In this document: positions 45,495-50,816 of the stretch, piece by piece | Layout: every line of letters begins with the position of its first letter | Position numbering within the stretch: position 1 is the stretch's first letter | Source of the DNA: Spirochaetaceae bacterium | GTDB lineage: Bacteria; Spirochaetota; Spirochaetia; DSM-27196; SLST01 | Length of the DNA stretch: 50,816 nucleotides | Assembly: GCA_007118855.1 (NCBI GenBank) | Contig: SKQU01000214.1 | Location: 1-50,816 of the forward strand | Reading direction: 5' to 3' | Position numbers and translations under genes: made by a program | The notes under the pieces: generated by a model | Seen by the model: only the letters and a program-made list of their open reading frames with translations | Databases searched by the model: none | Told to the model about the DNA's origin: nothing

Positions 45495-46228
45495 TCGCGA
45501 ACCTTCTCGTAGGCCGCCAGGACACGCTTGAACGCCTGTTCGGTCGCCTCCCGCTGGTCCGCGGTCAGAGAGCCGGCGGTATCGGGGTGAAACTGGGCGG
45601 CAAGGCGTCGGTAGGCGGTTCGTACGAGATCCGGGCTCGCATCGCGGGGTACGCCGAGCACGAGACAGGCCTCCGGATCGAGCAGCCGTACGGTCGTGAA
45701 CGTGTCCAGGATGAACCGTTCGTCGATTCCGACGCGGCGCGCGAGCCCGCGGATCTCGTCGCCCTGTGCCGGGCTCGCTCCTTCGTCCTTCACCGCGTCC
45801 CACACCGCCGCAAACAGCCGCTCCCGCTCCTGCGGCGTCGTGTGCGTGCGCACCAGGCCGGCGAAGCGCTCCGCCCCTGCCCACTCCTGCGTCGCCGCGG
45901 TGGCGATCATCCGTTCCACGAGCCGACGCGAGTAGCGGTCCGGGAAGTGCGGCCGGCACCGTTCCACCAGCAGTCCAAGCGGTTCGGACTCCGGAGCTCC
46001 GTAGCCGCCCCTGAGGCGACCGTAGAGCGCACCGGTGAGCGGCACGAAACAGGGCAGCCACGGCGGCGCGGGCATCCCTTCGAGAAACCGGAGCACGGCC
46101 CGGCTGACCCGACGCTCGACGAGCACGAGATCGCACAGCAGCCCGAGCAGCAGCCCGAAGAGGGCACCGTAGACCCCGCCGAGGGCACCAACGGCAACCC
46201 CGGCGACGGTGCCCCACCAGGTTCTCAT
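45485..46228 (-). CDS. Membrane-anchored TerB-like/DnaJ-domain (DjlA-like) co-chaperone
   Basis: N-terminal Gly/Leu-rich TM segment, TerB-like middle ([33 protein letters not shown]), C-terminal J domain with HPD ([27 protein letters not shown]). Confidence 0.85.
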
Positions 46229-47922
46229 TCCCGCGTCCCGAGCGCGAGGTAGGAGAGCGAGGCGAAGAGCAGAACAGCCTGCAGCACGATGGTCAGGGCG
46301 AGCGCTCCGCCGAAGCCGACCGCGAGAAGCAGCGTCGCGAGCACGATGCGCTGGGCGTAGACGAGGCCGAAGGAGAGCGGCACCAGGAGAAACGGGATGA
46401 GCGGGACGAGGAGCAGCGTCGGCAGCGGAGGCAGATGGAGATAACGGCTGCGGTACCGCCAGCCGAATCCCGCGAGCGCAAGCGAGAATACGAGGTAGGC
46501 GAAGGGAACGACGACGCGCATCAGGAACTCGAGCGTTATTGGTTCGCTCACCATGCCGTACCGGTCGGCCGCGGTGATCGTCCGCGAGAGCGAGGCGATA
46601 TTCGCGGCCTCCGGCCGCCGCGACACATCCGCAAGCAGCACGAGCTCATCGGCACTGGGAGCGATCTCGAGCAGCCCGTGGGTAACGGAGTCGGAATCGC
46701 CGGCATGGATGGTCGGTCCCGTCCGGGTTCCGCGCGGACCGCGATCAATGACGCTCACGATGAAGTGTCCGGCGGCGTGCTTCCCGTAGTCACTCGAGGC
46801 ATGCCTGAGCACGCTCCCCTCACGGTCGACTTCGATCCACTCGATCTGCTGGGCGTAGAGTCCGGAGCCGGTGGCGACGAGCTTGTCGATCGCTACGATC
46901 TCTACAGACTGTTCAACGGCCCGGTTGACGAAGACCAGACCGGGGGTACCGGGCAGACGGAGGGCGTCTACCACTTCGTCGCGGAACACCGTGAGGCCGG
47001 AGACCTGGTCCTCGGCCGCGCGAAGGTAGCGCGCCACGTCTGCATCGCGGGGATACTCCTGCGCGAGCGCAGCAAACTGGTAGTACGCCCCAACGGAGTC
47101 TCCGCGCGTCAGTGCTTCCCTCGCCCGCTGCTTGCGCCAGAACAGTATTCCCGCCTCGCTCTCGCGATCGTCGGGCGCGAGCGAGGCGAGCGATTCGAGG
47201 GACTGCGCCGCGATTCGCGCCGCCTCGTCGCCGGCCGGATCGAGCGACAGCGCCAGGCTCGCCATGTAGTGCGCCGTTGAGTAGTCGGCACGGCCCATCG
47301 CGACCACCGCCCGGTCCACCAACTCCGCAGCGGTCGCCCGTTCGGGAATCCGGAGCTCCGGCGGCGCCTCGTCTGCGGCTTCTACGGGCTCCTGCCGTCG
47401 CTGGTGCTCGCGAATCTCGATCAGCATCTGTTCGATCTGATCGCTTCGTCCAACAAGCGCGAGGTACTGGTTCAGCTGCTCCTGCGCCCGCTCATAGTCC
47501 TGCTCGGCGCGTGCGGCCTCGGCCGATTCGCGCAGCTGCAAGGCGAGCGTCGTGGTCAGCTCGAGCGAGTCGACACGCGCGACGGCGCTCGGATAACCGA
47601 CCAGGTAGCCGACGGAGAACACGAGGGTCGTCGCGAGCAGCAGCGCGATCGGCTGCCCGAACCGCTCGAAGCTCGATCCTCTGCTGACGGGCGCCGACAT
47701 GGGGATGAGCCAGGCGAACACAATGAGAACTGCCCACCCCTGGAAAGCGGGGGCGAGCCCCAGGAACTCCTCCCAGGTCCGGGCGACGATCCACTGCCAC
47801 TGCAGTTCCGCAAGCACGGTCCTGGTGGTAAACGCGAAGACGGACATCAGGAGCAGAAAGCCAAAGGCGAGGGCGTGACAGAGCACGGAAACGACCAGGA
47901 GCTTCTTCCAGGAATCAGCCAT
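46225..47922 (-). CDS. Hypothetical multi-pass membrane protein with TPR-like central region
   Basis: Start MADSWKKLLVVSVLCHALAFGFLLLMSVFAF; central helical repeats; TM helices at both ends; overlaps the upstream gene. Confidence 0.75.
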   Translation of the reverse strand: MADSWKKLLVVSVLCHALAFGFLLLMSVFAFTTRTVLAELQWQWIVARTWEEFLGLAPAFQGWAVLIVFAWLIPMSAPVSRGSSFERFGQPIALLLATTLVFSVGYLVGYPSAVARVDSLELTTTLALQLRESAEAARAEQDYERAQEQLNQYLALVGRSDQIEQMLIEIREHQRRQEPVEAADEAPPELRIPERATAAELVDRAVVAMGRADYSTAHYMASLALSLDPAGDEAARIAAQSLESLASLAPDDRESEAGILFWRKQRAREALTRGDSVGAYYQFAALAQEYPRDADVARYLRAAEDQVSGLTVFRDEVVDALRLPGTPGLVFVNRAVEQSVEIVAIDKLVATGSGLYAQQIEWIEVDREGSVLRHASSDYGKHAAGHFIVSVIDRGPRGTRTGPTIHAGDSDSVTHGLLEIAPSADELVLLADVSRRPEAANIASLSRTITAADRYGMVSEPITLEFLMRVVVPFAYLVFSLALAGFGWRYRSRYLHLPPLPTLLLVPLIPFLLVPLSFGLVYAQRIVLATLLLAVGFGGALALTIVLQAVLLFASLSYLALGTRE

Positions 47923-48886
47923 TGCGCAACCCGCCGCGCGTCTCGCGCCGCCATTCGGCGTATGAAGGAAGAAAGACCAGGACCGCAAGCAGACCGAGCC
48001 CAATGGCCGTGAGGATGACCGCGGGCGCGATCGGCAGGATCGTTGAGTCCAGGGCGGCGATGAGCACGGGGCGCAGCGCGCCGGTCCGCGACGCCGGCAC
48101 GATCCAGAGAGCGAGCCGCAGGCAGCCGAGCGCCAATGCAGCGTTGAACAGCGGCCAACGGGTCAGCCGGACCACGGTCCAGCACCCCAGAACGAAGAAG
48201 GCAAAGGCGGCGAGAGTGAGGATCGTGGGCACCGCCAACGGGCCGTCCAGGGCAAGGAGGCGAGCGGTTTCGCCGATGTCCGCTCTCAGCCGCGTCGCGT
48301 GGTGCGGAGGTCGCACCATCGAGGGGTACGAGTTGGCGATGCGCCCCTCGAGATCGATGGGAGAGCGAGGATCGCCGGGAAGCTCCAGCACTGCGGCTTG
48401 CGGCCCCGGATGACGTGCGCCGCGGACCTGGAACGCCGGCCGATCGCGCTCGTCGTGGACCACCAGCGGAACCGGGTCGGTACCCACCGCGCGCAACGGA
48501 TAGAGGCGCCAGGTCTCGACCCGCACGATTCGCTGCGGCGGGAGCACGGGTGGGTTGCTCGCCGCGGGCGGAACGACGGCGAGCACGAACCCGCCGGCGA
48601 ACAGAGTCAGCGTCCACAACGCGAAGAGCGCGGGCATCGTGACACGGGGAACGGCTTCGGCACGTACGGCGGCAAAGAGACTCAGAACTGCTGCGAGAAG
48701 CGTCACCGGTATCCAGGCTTGCGCGATCCCCGCGAGGAAAAGTGGCACCAGGGGCTCCGGCGCGACTGTTCGGGCGGGATCAAAGCCGGTAACATACCCG
48801 TGCGCCGCGGCGAGGGCGCCGGCGACGGCGATGATCGTGACAAACCAGATGAGGAAACGCACCAGAAGGCGCACCGCGGCTTTCAC
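47915..48886 (-). CDS. Hypothetical multi-pass membrane protein
   Basis: Several TM helices at N- and C-termini with a soluble middle; GTG at 48886 is 7 nt after TACGAT. Confidence 0.72.
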   Translation of the reverse strand: MKAAVRLLVRFLIWFVTIIAVAGALAAAHGYVTGFDPARTVAPEPLVPLFLAGIAQAWIPVTLLAAVLSLFAAVRAEAVPRVTMPALFALWTLTLFAGGFVLAVVPPAASNPPVLPPQRIVRVETWRLYPLRAVGTDPVPLVVHDERDRPAFQVRGARHPGPQAAVLELPGDPRSPIDLEGRIANSYPSMVRPPHHATRLRADIGETARLLALDGPLAVPTILTLAAFAFFVLGCWTVVRLTRWPLFNAALALGCLRLALWIVPASRTGALRPVLIAALDSTILPIAPAVILTAIGLGLLAVLVFLPSYAEWRRETRGGLRNG

Positions 48887-48953: not shown

Positions 48954-49520
48954 GTGTCGGGTATACGAGAGGAGACCGAAGAGGCATTGGTCGCGCGCGC
49001 GAGAACCGGCGATCGAGAGGCGTTCGGGCTGCTCGTCCATGCCTATCTCCCCCGCCTCTACCGTGTTGCCTACGGCGTCGTGCGTAACGGGGAGGAGGCC
49101 GCGGACATCGCGCAGGACGCCTTCGTCCGCGCCTACCGGGCCATCCGGCGGTTCGATCCGTCACGACCGGTGTTTCCGTGGCTCTACCAGATCACGCGCA
49201 ACCTCGCGCTGAACCGGATCGCGCGGGTGCGCAACCGGGAAGGGACGCTCGAAATCGACTCGCTCGTCGCCCCCGGGAAAGGGCCCGAGGATGCCGTGGA
49301 AGCAGACGACGAGTGCGCCAGGATACGCCGGGCGGTCGCGCGGCTGCCGGAGCAGCATCGACTCGTGATCGAGCTGAACCACTTTCAGGAGTGCTCCTAC
49401 CGGGATATGGCGGAGATTCTCGGTATACCGGTCGGAACGGTCATGTCGCGCCTCTACCATGCGAGGAAGCGGCTGCGAACGGTTCTGGAAGAGGAGGAAC
49501 ACGGTGAACCCGTACGATGA
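48954..49520 (+). CDS. RNA polymerase ECF-type sigma factor
   Basis: EEALVARARTGDREAFGLLVHAYLPRLYRVAYGVVRNGEEAADIAQDAFVRAYRAI (region 2) and CSYRDMAEILGIPVGTVMSRLYHARKRLR (region 4); AGGAAGG before GTG. Confidence 0.93.
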   Translation: MSGIREETEEALVARARTGDREAFGLLVHAYLPRLYRVAYGVVRNGEEAADIAQDAFVRAYRAIRRFDPSRPVFPWLYQITRNLALNRIARVRNREGTLEIDSLVAPGKGPEDAVEADDECARIRRAVARLPEQHRLVIELNHFQECSYRDMAEILGIPVGTVMSRLYHARKRLRTVLEEEEHGEPVR

Positions 49521-49968
49521 CGATCCGCAGGATACCCCGCTCGAAGACACGCGAGCGAAGATCCAGGCGCTCGTTGACAACGAGTTGCCCGATTCGGAGA
49601 TCGAGCCGGTACTGGAGACCATCCAGGGCTCGTACGAGTACCGGGCAGAATACGCGGAGCTACTGAGACTGCGCCGTCGGCTCGCTGCCGGCCCGGCGCC
49701 ACCGGTATCCGCCGACTGGCTGGCCAAAGCCGAGCGGCGCATCTCACGGCGCGTGACCCAGAGCGTCGGAGCAGTGCTCCTGGTTGGATCCTATGCCGTC
49801 CTGCTGGGGTACGCCCTGTTCACCTTCCTGCGCGACCCGGAGGTTCCCCGACTGGTCACCGTGCTCGTCGCGCTCGGCGCGCTCGGAATCGGTGCATTGC
49901 TCGTCAACGCCGTCGCGGATAGAATCCGGGAGAAGAAGACCGACCGTTATCGGGAGATCATACGATGA
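49504..49968 (+). CDS. Probable membrane anti-sigma factor (zinc-motif-free)
   Basis: Overlaps the sigma gene; IQALVDNELPDSEIEPVLETIQGSYEYRAEYAELLRLRRRL resembles an anti-sigma N-domain; two TM helices. Confidence 0.65.
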   Translation: MNPYDDDPQDTPLEDTRAKIQALVDNELPDSEIEPVLETIQGSYEYRAEYAELLRLRRRLAAGPAPPVSADWLAKAERRISRRVTQSVGAVLLVGSYAVLLGYALFTFLRDPEVPRLVTVLVALGALGIGALLVNAVADRIREKKTDRYREIIR

Positions 49969-50285
49969 TAATCGCGACGAGCGAGTCGATCGCCGGCAAG
50001 AGGATTTCGGCGGTCCTGGGAATGGTGCGCGGGAATACGATCCGCGCCCGGCACATCGGCAAGGACGTGGTGGCCGCCTTCAAGAATCTCGCAGGCGGGG
50101 AAATCACGGACTACACGAAGATGCTGGCTGAGAGCCGCGAGCAGGCGCTCGACCGGATGATCGAGGACGCGGAGTCGCTTGGGGCCAACGCGATCGTCGC
50201 GGTCCGTTTCACGACAAGCTCGGTCATGCAGGGCGCCGCCGAGATCCTCGTCTACGGCACCGCCGTCCGCTGCGATGACGAATAG
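49965..50285 (+). CDS. YbjQ/UPF0145 (DUF74) family protein
   Basis: ISAVLGMVRGNTIRARHIGKD, EITDYTKMLAESREQALDRMIEDAESLGANAIVAVRFTTSSVMQGAAEILVYGTAV. Confidence 0.92.
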   Translation: MIIATSESIAGKRISAVLGMVRGNTIRARHIGKDVVAAFKNLAGGEITDYTKMLAESREQALDRMIEDAESLGANAIVAVRFTTSSVMQGAAEILVYGTAVRCDDE

Positions 50286-50291
50286 GCCAGG

Positions 50292-50311
50292 TTATCCACA
50301 GCTTATCAACA
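50292..50311 (+). promoter_or_regulatory. Two direct DnaA boxes, TTATCCACA and TTATCAACA, phased 11 bp apart
   Basis: TTATCCACA 50292-50300, TTATCAACA 50303-50311. Confidence 0.7.
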
Positions 50312-50323
50312 GGCTCTGAGTCG

Positions 50324-50342
50324 GTCCGGCGGCCGACCGGAC
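50324..50342. repeat. Inverted repeat GTCCGG-N7-CCGGAC
   Basis: GTCCGG 50324-50329, CCGGAC 50337-50342; GC-rich hairpin without a T-tract. Confidence 0.6.
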
Positions 50343-50527
50343 GGCCGCGTACGACGTCTCGCACAACTCAAATTCGTCCACTTGCCGCAGAAGACTGCCT
50401 ATTTCCATATGAAGAAAAGAGATACGAGAAAGTCAAGAGGATTTGCGTGCATCAGGGCCTCGGATTCCACCCTTCCATCTTAAAACCTGTGTAGCTGTTC
50501 CACGAAAAAGGCCGACTTTTGCACGTA

Positions 50528-50536
50528 TTATCCACA
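50528..50536 (+). promoter_or_regulatory. DnaA box TTATCCACA
   Basis: Exact consensus nonamer at 50528-50536 in the same intergenic region. Confidence 0.7.
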
Positions 50537-50567
50537 AGCTCGCGCACGAGAGCCGTTGACGTGCCAA

Positions 50568-50816
50568 CTACGACATCTCAAGGCGGTAGCCGTGCCCACG
50601 ATACGCCCGTATGGCCGGCGGAGAGTCCCAGGCGGCAGTCACGCTCCTGAGCCTCGCCCGCAATCGCGAGAGCTGCATATCCACGGCACGGCTCCTGCCC
50701 GCCGCGACTCCCGTCACGGCGGCAAGGGTCTCCCGGGCCACCGGCTCGTCGCCCGAACGCGCGAGAATCTCGAGAATGGCGTATTGAACCGGCGTCAGTG
50801 GTGCGGTCCGCTGCTG
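50568..50816 (-). CDS. OmpR/PhoB-type winged-helix DNA-binding domain, C-terminal part (runs off right edge)
   Basis: Reverse-strand reading with stop at 50568-50570: QQRTAPLTPVQYAILEILARSGDEPVARETLAAVTGVAAGRSRAVDMQLSRLRARLRSVTAAWDSPPAIRAYRGHGYRLEMS. LTPxQYxIL and IRAYRGHGYRL are typical trans_reg_C features. Not in the ORF track because it is truncated. Confidence 0.85.
   Translation of the reverse strand, partial: QQRTAPLTPVQYAILEILARSGDEPVARETLAAVTGVAAGRSRAVDMQLSRLRARLRSVTAAWDSPPAIRAYRGHGYRLEMS

Follow-up and report, generated by a model that had tools for sequence, protein, structure and literature searches.

A conserved DnaA-box module with a central palindrome in Spirochaetia, a candidate DnaA control site outside the origin

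In the stretch of DNA that was analysed (hereafter the window, 50,816 nucleotides from the draft genome of a Spirochaetaceae bacterium), the non-coding gap between two convergent genes carries a three-part module at 50292-50536, in which two co-directional pairs of DnaA boxes, each in an 11-bp register, flank a 25-bp palindrome. Judged from its sequence and from that of its relatives, we consider it fairly probable that this locus is a conserved chromosomal DnaA-binding control site outside the origin, which would titrate or inactivate DnaA in the manner of datA and of DnaA-box clusters. It probably helps to set the timing of chromosome copying. To our knowledge, most of what is known in detail about loci that control replication from outside the origin comes from E. 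coli and B. subtilis; in the literature searched, whose coverage was incomplete, no published description of such a locus was found for Spirochaetota. A conserved, origin-like module that probably lies outside the origin, with a precise three-part layout, provides a compact DNA target. It allows one to ask whether dedicated sites for titrating or inactivating DnaA are a general strategy, and points to a putative palindrome-binding partner that could be recovered with one probe. It is also a warning for origin prediction, since DnaA boxes may cluster densely around an AT-rich core at a site other than oriC.

Anatomy of the locus

The gap is bounded by the stop of ybjQ (PF01906; 49965-50285, + strand), the last gene of a sigma/anti-sigma-like/ybjQ operon, at 50285, and by that of a winged-helix gene (Trans_reg_C, PF00486; - strand) at 50568, the C-terminal part of which (50568-50816) is truncated by the contig end. 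Both genes converge on the module with their 3' ends. Genomes, contigs and loci are cited here by handles (G, C and L), G000 being the window's own genome and G005 and G002 its two closest relatives. A full-length winged-helix orthologue is found in G005, followed by PspA and STAS genes. The gene order STAS, PspA, winged helix, module, YbjQ, anti-sigma-like protein and ECF sigma factor is conserved (window 48954-50816, continuing in L142 and L143), and two large membrane proteins with no Pfam match are encoded beyond the ECF sigma factor (window 46225-48886). From STAS to the membrane proteins, this neighbourhood looks like an envelope-stress group.

The first pair is made of box 1a, a consensus TTATCCACA at 50292-50300 with orthologues in G005 and G002, and its partner box 1b, TTATCAACA, which has one mismatch, at 50303-50311. 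The second pair is half degenerate: box 2a, TTTTGCACG at 50517-50525, is the same word in G005 and G002 and is followed 11 bp later by box 2b, again a consensus TTATCCACA, at 50528-50536. All four lie on the + strand. A preliminary description of this DNA had correctly recognised the boxes at 50292, 50303 and 50528; the degenerate partner at 50517, 11 bp before the last of them, had escaped it, and the weaker TCCAC cores that it listed were dismissed, being 5-mers within 9-mers that score worse than one mismatch. The distance from the first pair to the second is 225 bp in the window and likewise in G005 and G002; of the 16 genomes compared first, 14 have a spacing of 211-225 bp.

The palindrome (50400-50424, no strand; consensus TAANTNNTTNYNNNRNAANNANTTA) is located about 101 bp past the first pair and 105 bp ahead of the second, within the AT-richer stretch that had been pointed out before and that is indeed present. 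Between the palindrome and the second pair, a TTAAAACCTGTGTAGCTGTT block (50480-50499, + strand) is conserved in the genus, as seen by eye in G000, G005, G002 and G004. The GC-rich inverted repeat of the preliminary description also exists, as a hairpin 3' of ybjQ (50320-50337, + strand; stem 50320-50326/50331-50337) whose sequence is similar in G005 and G002. Its stability does not exceed that of shuffled sequences (z -0.94) and it has no T run; it probably marks where transcripts of the ybjQ operon end. Around the gap, no Rfam family was detected.

The box cluster in the gap is real and its clustering is far above chance. With at most one mismatch, the only DnaA boxes of the 50.8-kb window are those at 50292, 50303 and 50528, all on the + strand. 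As single boxes they are no more numerous than chance would allow (3 found, 2.2 expected), whereas no triplet within 245 bp arose when 4-Mb sequences with the composition of the window or of the gap were simulated. Exact TTATCCACA is found nine times in the 3.9-Mb draft genome: twice at this locus, three times in the gyrB-dnaA gap (contig C47), twice in the jag-gcvT gap (C328) and as two singles.

Conservation of the module and of its palindrome

Loci were anchored on the STAS gene (alignment A1, 80 named Spirochaetia loci), and the 5 kb located 3' of this gene were scanned, 343 kb in total. We detected 72 box pairs, every one of them on the strand that points back towards STAS. Upstream of STAS, no pair was found in 304 kb, and six permuted motifs gave no pair in the STAS-anchored scan. 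The complete pair-gap-pair arrangement in its fixed orientation was present downstream of STAS in 56 of 71 Spirochaetia loci, against none on the opposite strand (0/71), with permuted motifs (0/284) or in upstream scans (0/118). As the relatives share ancestry, p-values given here are optimistic. Carriers include Alkalispirochaeta alkalica, Ca. Marispirochaeta associata, Breznakiella homolactica, and Gracilinema and Treponema MAGs. The arrangement is missing in the 15 other loci, and some of these genomes carry the module only at dnaA.

Neighbouring genes differ between families while the module persists. The cluster adjoins ybjQ in eight relatives (G005, G002, G004, G010, G017, G021, G026 and G008), and winged-helix, PspA or STAS genes in families without ybjQ. 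In the window and in all 11 ybjQ-flanked loci, ybjQ converges on the module; since the module then sits between convergent 3' ends, a promoter role is unlikely in the ybjQ-bearing lineages.

The 25-bp palindrome emerged from a motif search in the gaps with a likelihood well above that of shuffled gaps, and its matrix correlates at 0.88 with its own reverse complement. The window was excluded from motif training, close relatives being included. When tested by four-fold held-out scoring, 37 of 52 gaps exceeded the 99% level of shuffled gaps, and the mean offset of the palindrome from mid-gap was 6.9 bp, against about 43 bp expected. Its spacings to the box pairs step by about 10.5 bp on both sides (Rayleigh p ~1e-6, shared ancestry ignored). 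This is better evidence of phasing than the pair-to-pair distance, for which R is about 0.52 over all loci and p about 0.05 on distinct values only. The palindrome at 50400-50424 is the best match in the window and the only one with at most one mismatch in its own 3.9-Mb genome, its score being moderate (16.2 bits; held-out fold scores 8.4-17.3). In G008 and G011, box pairs are present at the locus and the palindrome there is not above threshold.

AT-richer genomes hold further copies of the palindrome without box pairs, and it was therefore discarded as a purely origin-linked mark; as it is also present without box pairs, its binder may have other jobs. Good matches were seen in G041 (C1 2578768, 2618815, 2713896 and 3011268, among others) and in G056 (C101 29840, 54049, 58916 and 60008); some of them are close to the origin, and several apparently lack DnaA pairs. 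These extra palindromes may be other targets of the putative palindrome-binding protein. As to what might bind it, no IHF consensus was found between the two pairs of the window, where the sole match with at most one mismatch overlaps the first box pair, and across modules the consensus is not enriched (3/56, against 1.6 in shuffles). A literature search on Hbb, the spirochaete DNA-bending protein, as palindrome binder gave nothing usable. EbfC of Borrelia, which binds GTnAC (PMC9879097), was rejected, GTnAC not being the conserved core of the palindrome.

Relation to the origin and alternative explanations

The locus adjoins neither dnaA, dnaN, gyrB nor other origin genes. As had been noted, dnaA is not in the window; we located it on contig C47, and in relatives with genomes of 3.3-4.7 Mb it lies 10.5, 10.7, 51, 75, 113 or 403 kb from the locus, a roughly 40-fold variation. 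In the closed genomes G011 (3,285,855 bp) and G008 (3,782,798 bp), the sign of the GC skew reverses at or near dnaA, and the locus is 113 and 75 kb away, respectively, inside one sign. In G041 (Breznakiella homolactica, 4.65 Mb), where the skew is weak and its change of sign is spread over a broad region around dnaA, there is no switch at the locus, 403 kb away. In G065, G045 and G056, one contig carries both dnaA and the locus, and the switch coincides with dnaA, at distances from the locus of 51, 10.7 and 10.5 kb, respectively. G074 has no switch at the locus either, so that none was found there in any of these seven relatives.

The same architecture is nevertheless found at putative origins. 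In G041, G042, G043, G045 and G046, and in the genomes of L186, L221, L226, L230, L232 and L234, a pair-palindrome-pair module with the palindrome in its centre is located immediately upstream of dnaA, and these sequences played no part in training the motif. This module is at the skew switch in G045, as is the palindrome upstream of dnaA in G065 and G056. Several genomes without the STAS-downstream locus have the module at dnaA, and some genomes combine the two. In the genome of the window, the gyrB-dnaA gap (G000:C47 12208-12465, L012) contains two DnaA-box pairs 238 bp apart and, unlike in several relatives, no palindrome (best score -5.8 bits). A further pair-gap-pair cluster lies in the jag-gcvT gap (G000:C328 2384-2594, L013; also L112, L127, L155-L159, L322 and L323), which in the own genome has box pairs but no palindrome; it is 7.5-8 kb from dnaA in G011 and G008. 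A strong DnaA site is also known downstream of jag in B. subtilis (PMC4447404). In genomes with no boxes upstream of dnaA, the jag-gcvT cluster could belong to the origin. A second, weaker match to the Bac_DnaA domain (2.1e-8) was seen at G000:C130 2326-2634, possibly a DnaA-like or Hda-like protein.

The preliminary description had proposed oriC or a DnaA-titration site, on the strength of an origin-like architecture that is real, several relatives having the same module immediately upstream of dnaA. The DnaA-box pairs and the locally AT-richer middle (mean mid-gap GC 0.28-0.30) are, at the sequence level, what oriC would have. Moreover, on the dnaA contigs of the window's genus (L319, L320 and L321, from G000, G005 and G002), the skew is of one sign or flat across the few kb available, unlike that of G065, G045 and G056; contigs around dnaA and jag are short in this genus, and the skew evidence against oriC comes from relatives. 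In these, oriC is rejected by a switch at or near dnaA (G008, G011, G041, G065, G045 and G056) and by none at the locus, G074 included. A skew minimum far away had been named in advance as an argument against oriC, and the switch of the relatives is indeed some 10-400 kb from the locus. A pair-gap-pair box cluster also adjoins dnaA in the own genome. The locus is thus probably not oriC, and that it should be the chromosomal oriC or an active second origin of its own genome appears very unlikely to us; of the two earlier proposals, DnaA titration, or DnaA control more broadly, is the better-supported reading.

We hold it unlikely, if less so, that the module is a regulatory region through which DnaA, as a transcription factor, controls a neighbouring gene, for instance the sigma operon or the membrane-protein genes. 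In B. subtilis, several genes are repressed or activated by DnaA at box clusters (PMC4447404); in Borrelia, genes for replication have DnaA bound upstream of them (PMC9879097); and in G011, G034 and G025, a membrane-protein gene has its 5' end towards the module. However, ybjQ points its 3' end at the module in the window and in all 11 ybjQ-flanked loci, the adjacent genes change between families while the module stays, and its orientation relative to the STAS side is fixed in all pairs. A DARS-like site, which would reactivate ADP-DnaA instead of acting negatively, would also be a non-coding DnaA-box locus outside oriC with fixed spacing (PMC4585315), but E. coli DARS2 requires IHF and Fis (PMC4585315) and the IHF consensus is absent between the pairs, which makes this explanation quite improbable. 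As for a functionless chance cluster of DnaA-like 9-mers, the number of single boxes in the window would agree with it; conservation, orientation, phasing and the unique palindrome do not. The STAS-anchored pair and pair-gap-pair counts, set against their controls, refute chance as the source of the sequence pattern, and we give the explanation almost no credence.

Proposed mechanism and comparison with known systems

For a control site that titrates or inactivates DnaA, we infer four elements: DnaA binding, a palindrome-binding protein, looping and an effect on initiation. DnaA would occupy both box pairs cooperatively, a mode of binding favoured by paired co-directional boxes one helical turn apart. 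A homodimeric protein, as implied by the palindromic nature of the element, would bend or bridge DNA at the centre, and the helically phased pairs would be brought together in one looped complex, since the helical phase is fixed on both sides of the palindrome. In relatives, the skew switch is about 10-400 kb away, so that replication would duplicate the locus soon after initiation. The duplicated locus would from then on sequester DnaA or reduce its activity, restraining re-initiation; its position near the origin, with genes converging on it, is consistent with binding or inactivation of DnaA once the fork has passed. We also propose, tentatively and with less confidence, that Spirochaetales share a tripartite module which belongs to the origin where it adjoins dnaA, with an ectopic copy downstream of STAS/PspA/winged-helix genes as a dedicated initiation-control decoy, and that the palindrome marks an unrecognised dimeric replication-control protein in the place that IHF holds at E. 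coli datA.

In E. coli, datA stimulates DnaA-ATP hydrolysis, its deletion causes over-initiation, and an IHF site between its DnaA boxes is needed for activity. Known DnaA-box loci that modulate initiation from outside the origin are datA, DARS and the B. subtilis clusters; datA and, as a group, the B. subtilis clusters are reported to bind or inactivate DnaA, and at datA the site of a second DNA-binding protein lies between the boxes, with spacing under selection (PMC5295017; PMC4585315). Like datA, the module is a non-coding DnaA-box cluster outside oriC, as shown in relatives, with a site for another protein between its boxes. Unlike datA, it consists of two symmetric co-directional pairs, is present across Spirochaetales, is known here from sequence, and has a 25-bp palindrome with a putative binder instead of an IHF consensus. 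By analogy of layout it may work like datA; we do not class it as datA, because an IHF consensus is neither present between the pairs nor enriched among modules. With E. coli DARS1 and DARS2, which affect the nucleotide state of DnaA, it shares the location of DnaA boxes outside oriC, but DARS has a three-box core and DARS2 depends on IHF and Fis (PMC4585315), whereas the module lacks an IHF consensus between its pairs.

In B. subtilis, DnaA-box clusters such as gcp-ydiF, one of them between convergent 3' ends, are found outside the origin, and removal of six of them leads to early initiation (PMC5295017; PMC4447404). In E. coli, enrichment of DnaA boxes near oriC was proposed to aid titration (PMC12371093). 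Like the B. subtilis clusters, the locus groups several consensus boxes outside oriC and is origin-proximal in relatives (10.5-403 kb from dnaA). It differs in its genes, its phylum and its central palindrome, a feature not described for the B. subtilis clusters in the sources consulted. The closest layout is that of the spirochaete dnaA-upstream module (putative oriC; Breznakiella homolactica, Gracilinema-type), which has the same pair-palindrome-pair order; that module adjoins dnaA at or near the skew switch, whereas the site of the window is elsewhere, with no switch in relatives. On its sequence, the locus fits the definition of an extra-origin DnaA-box cluster.
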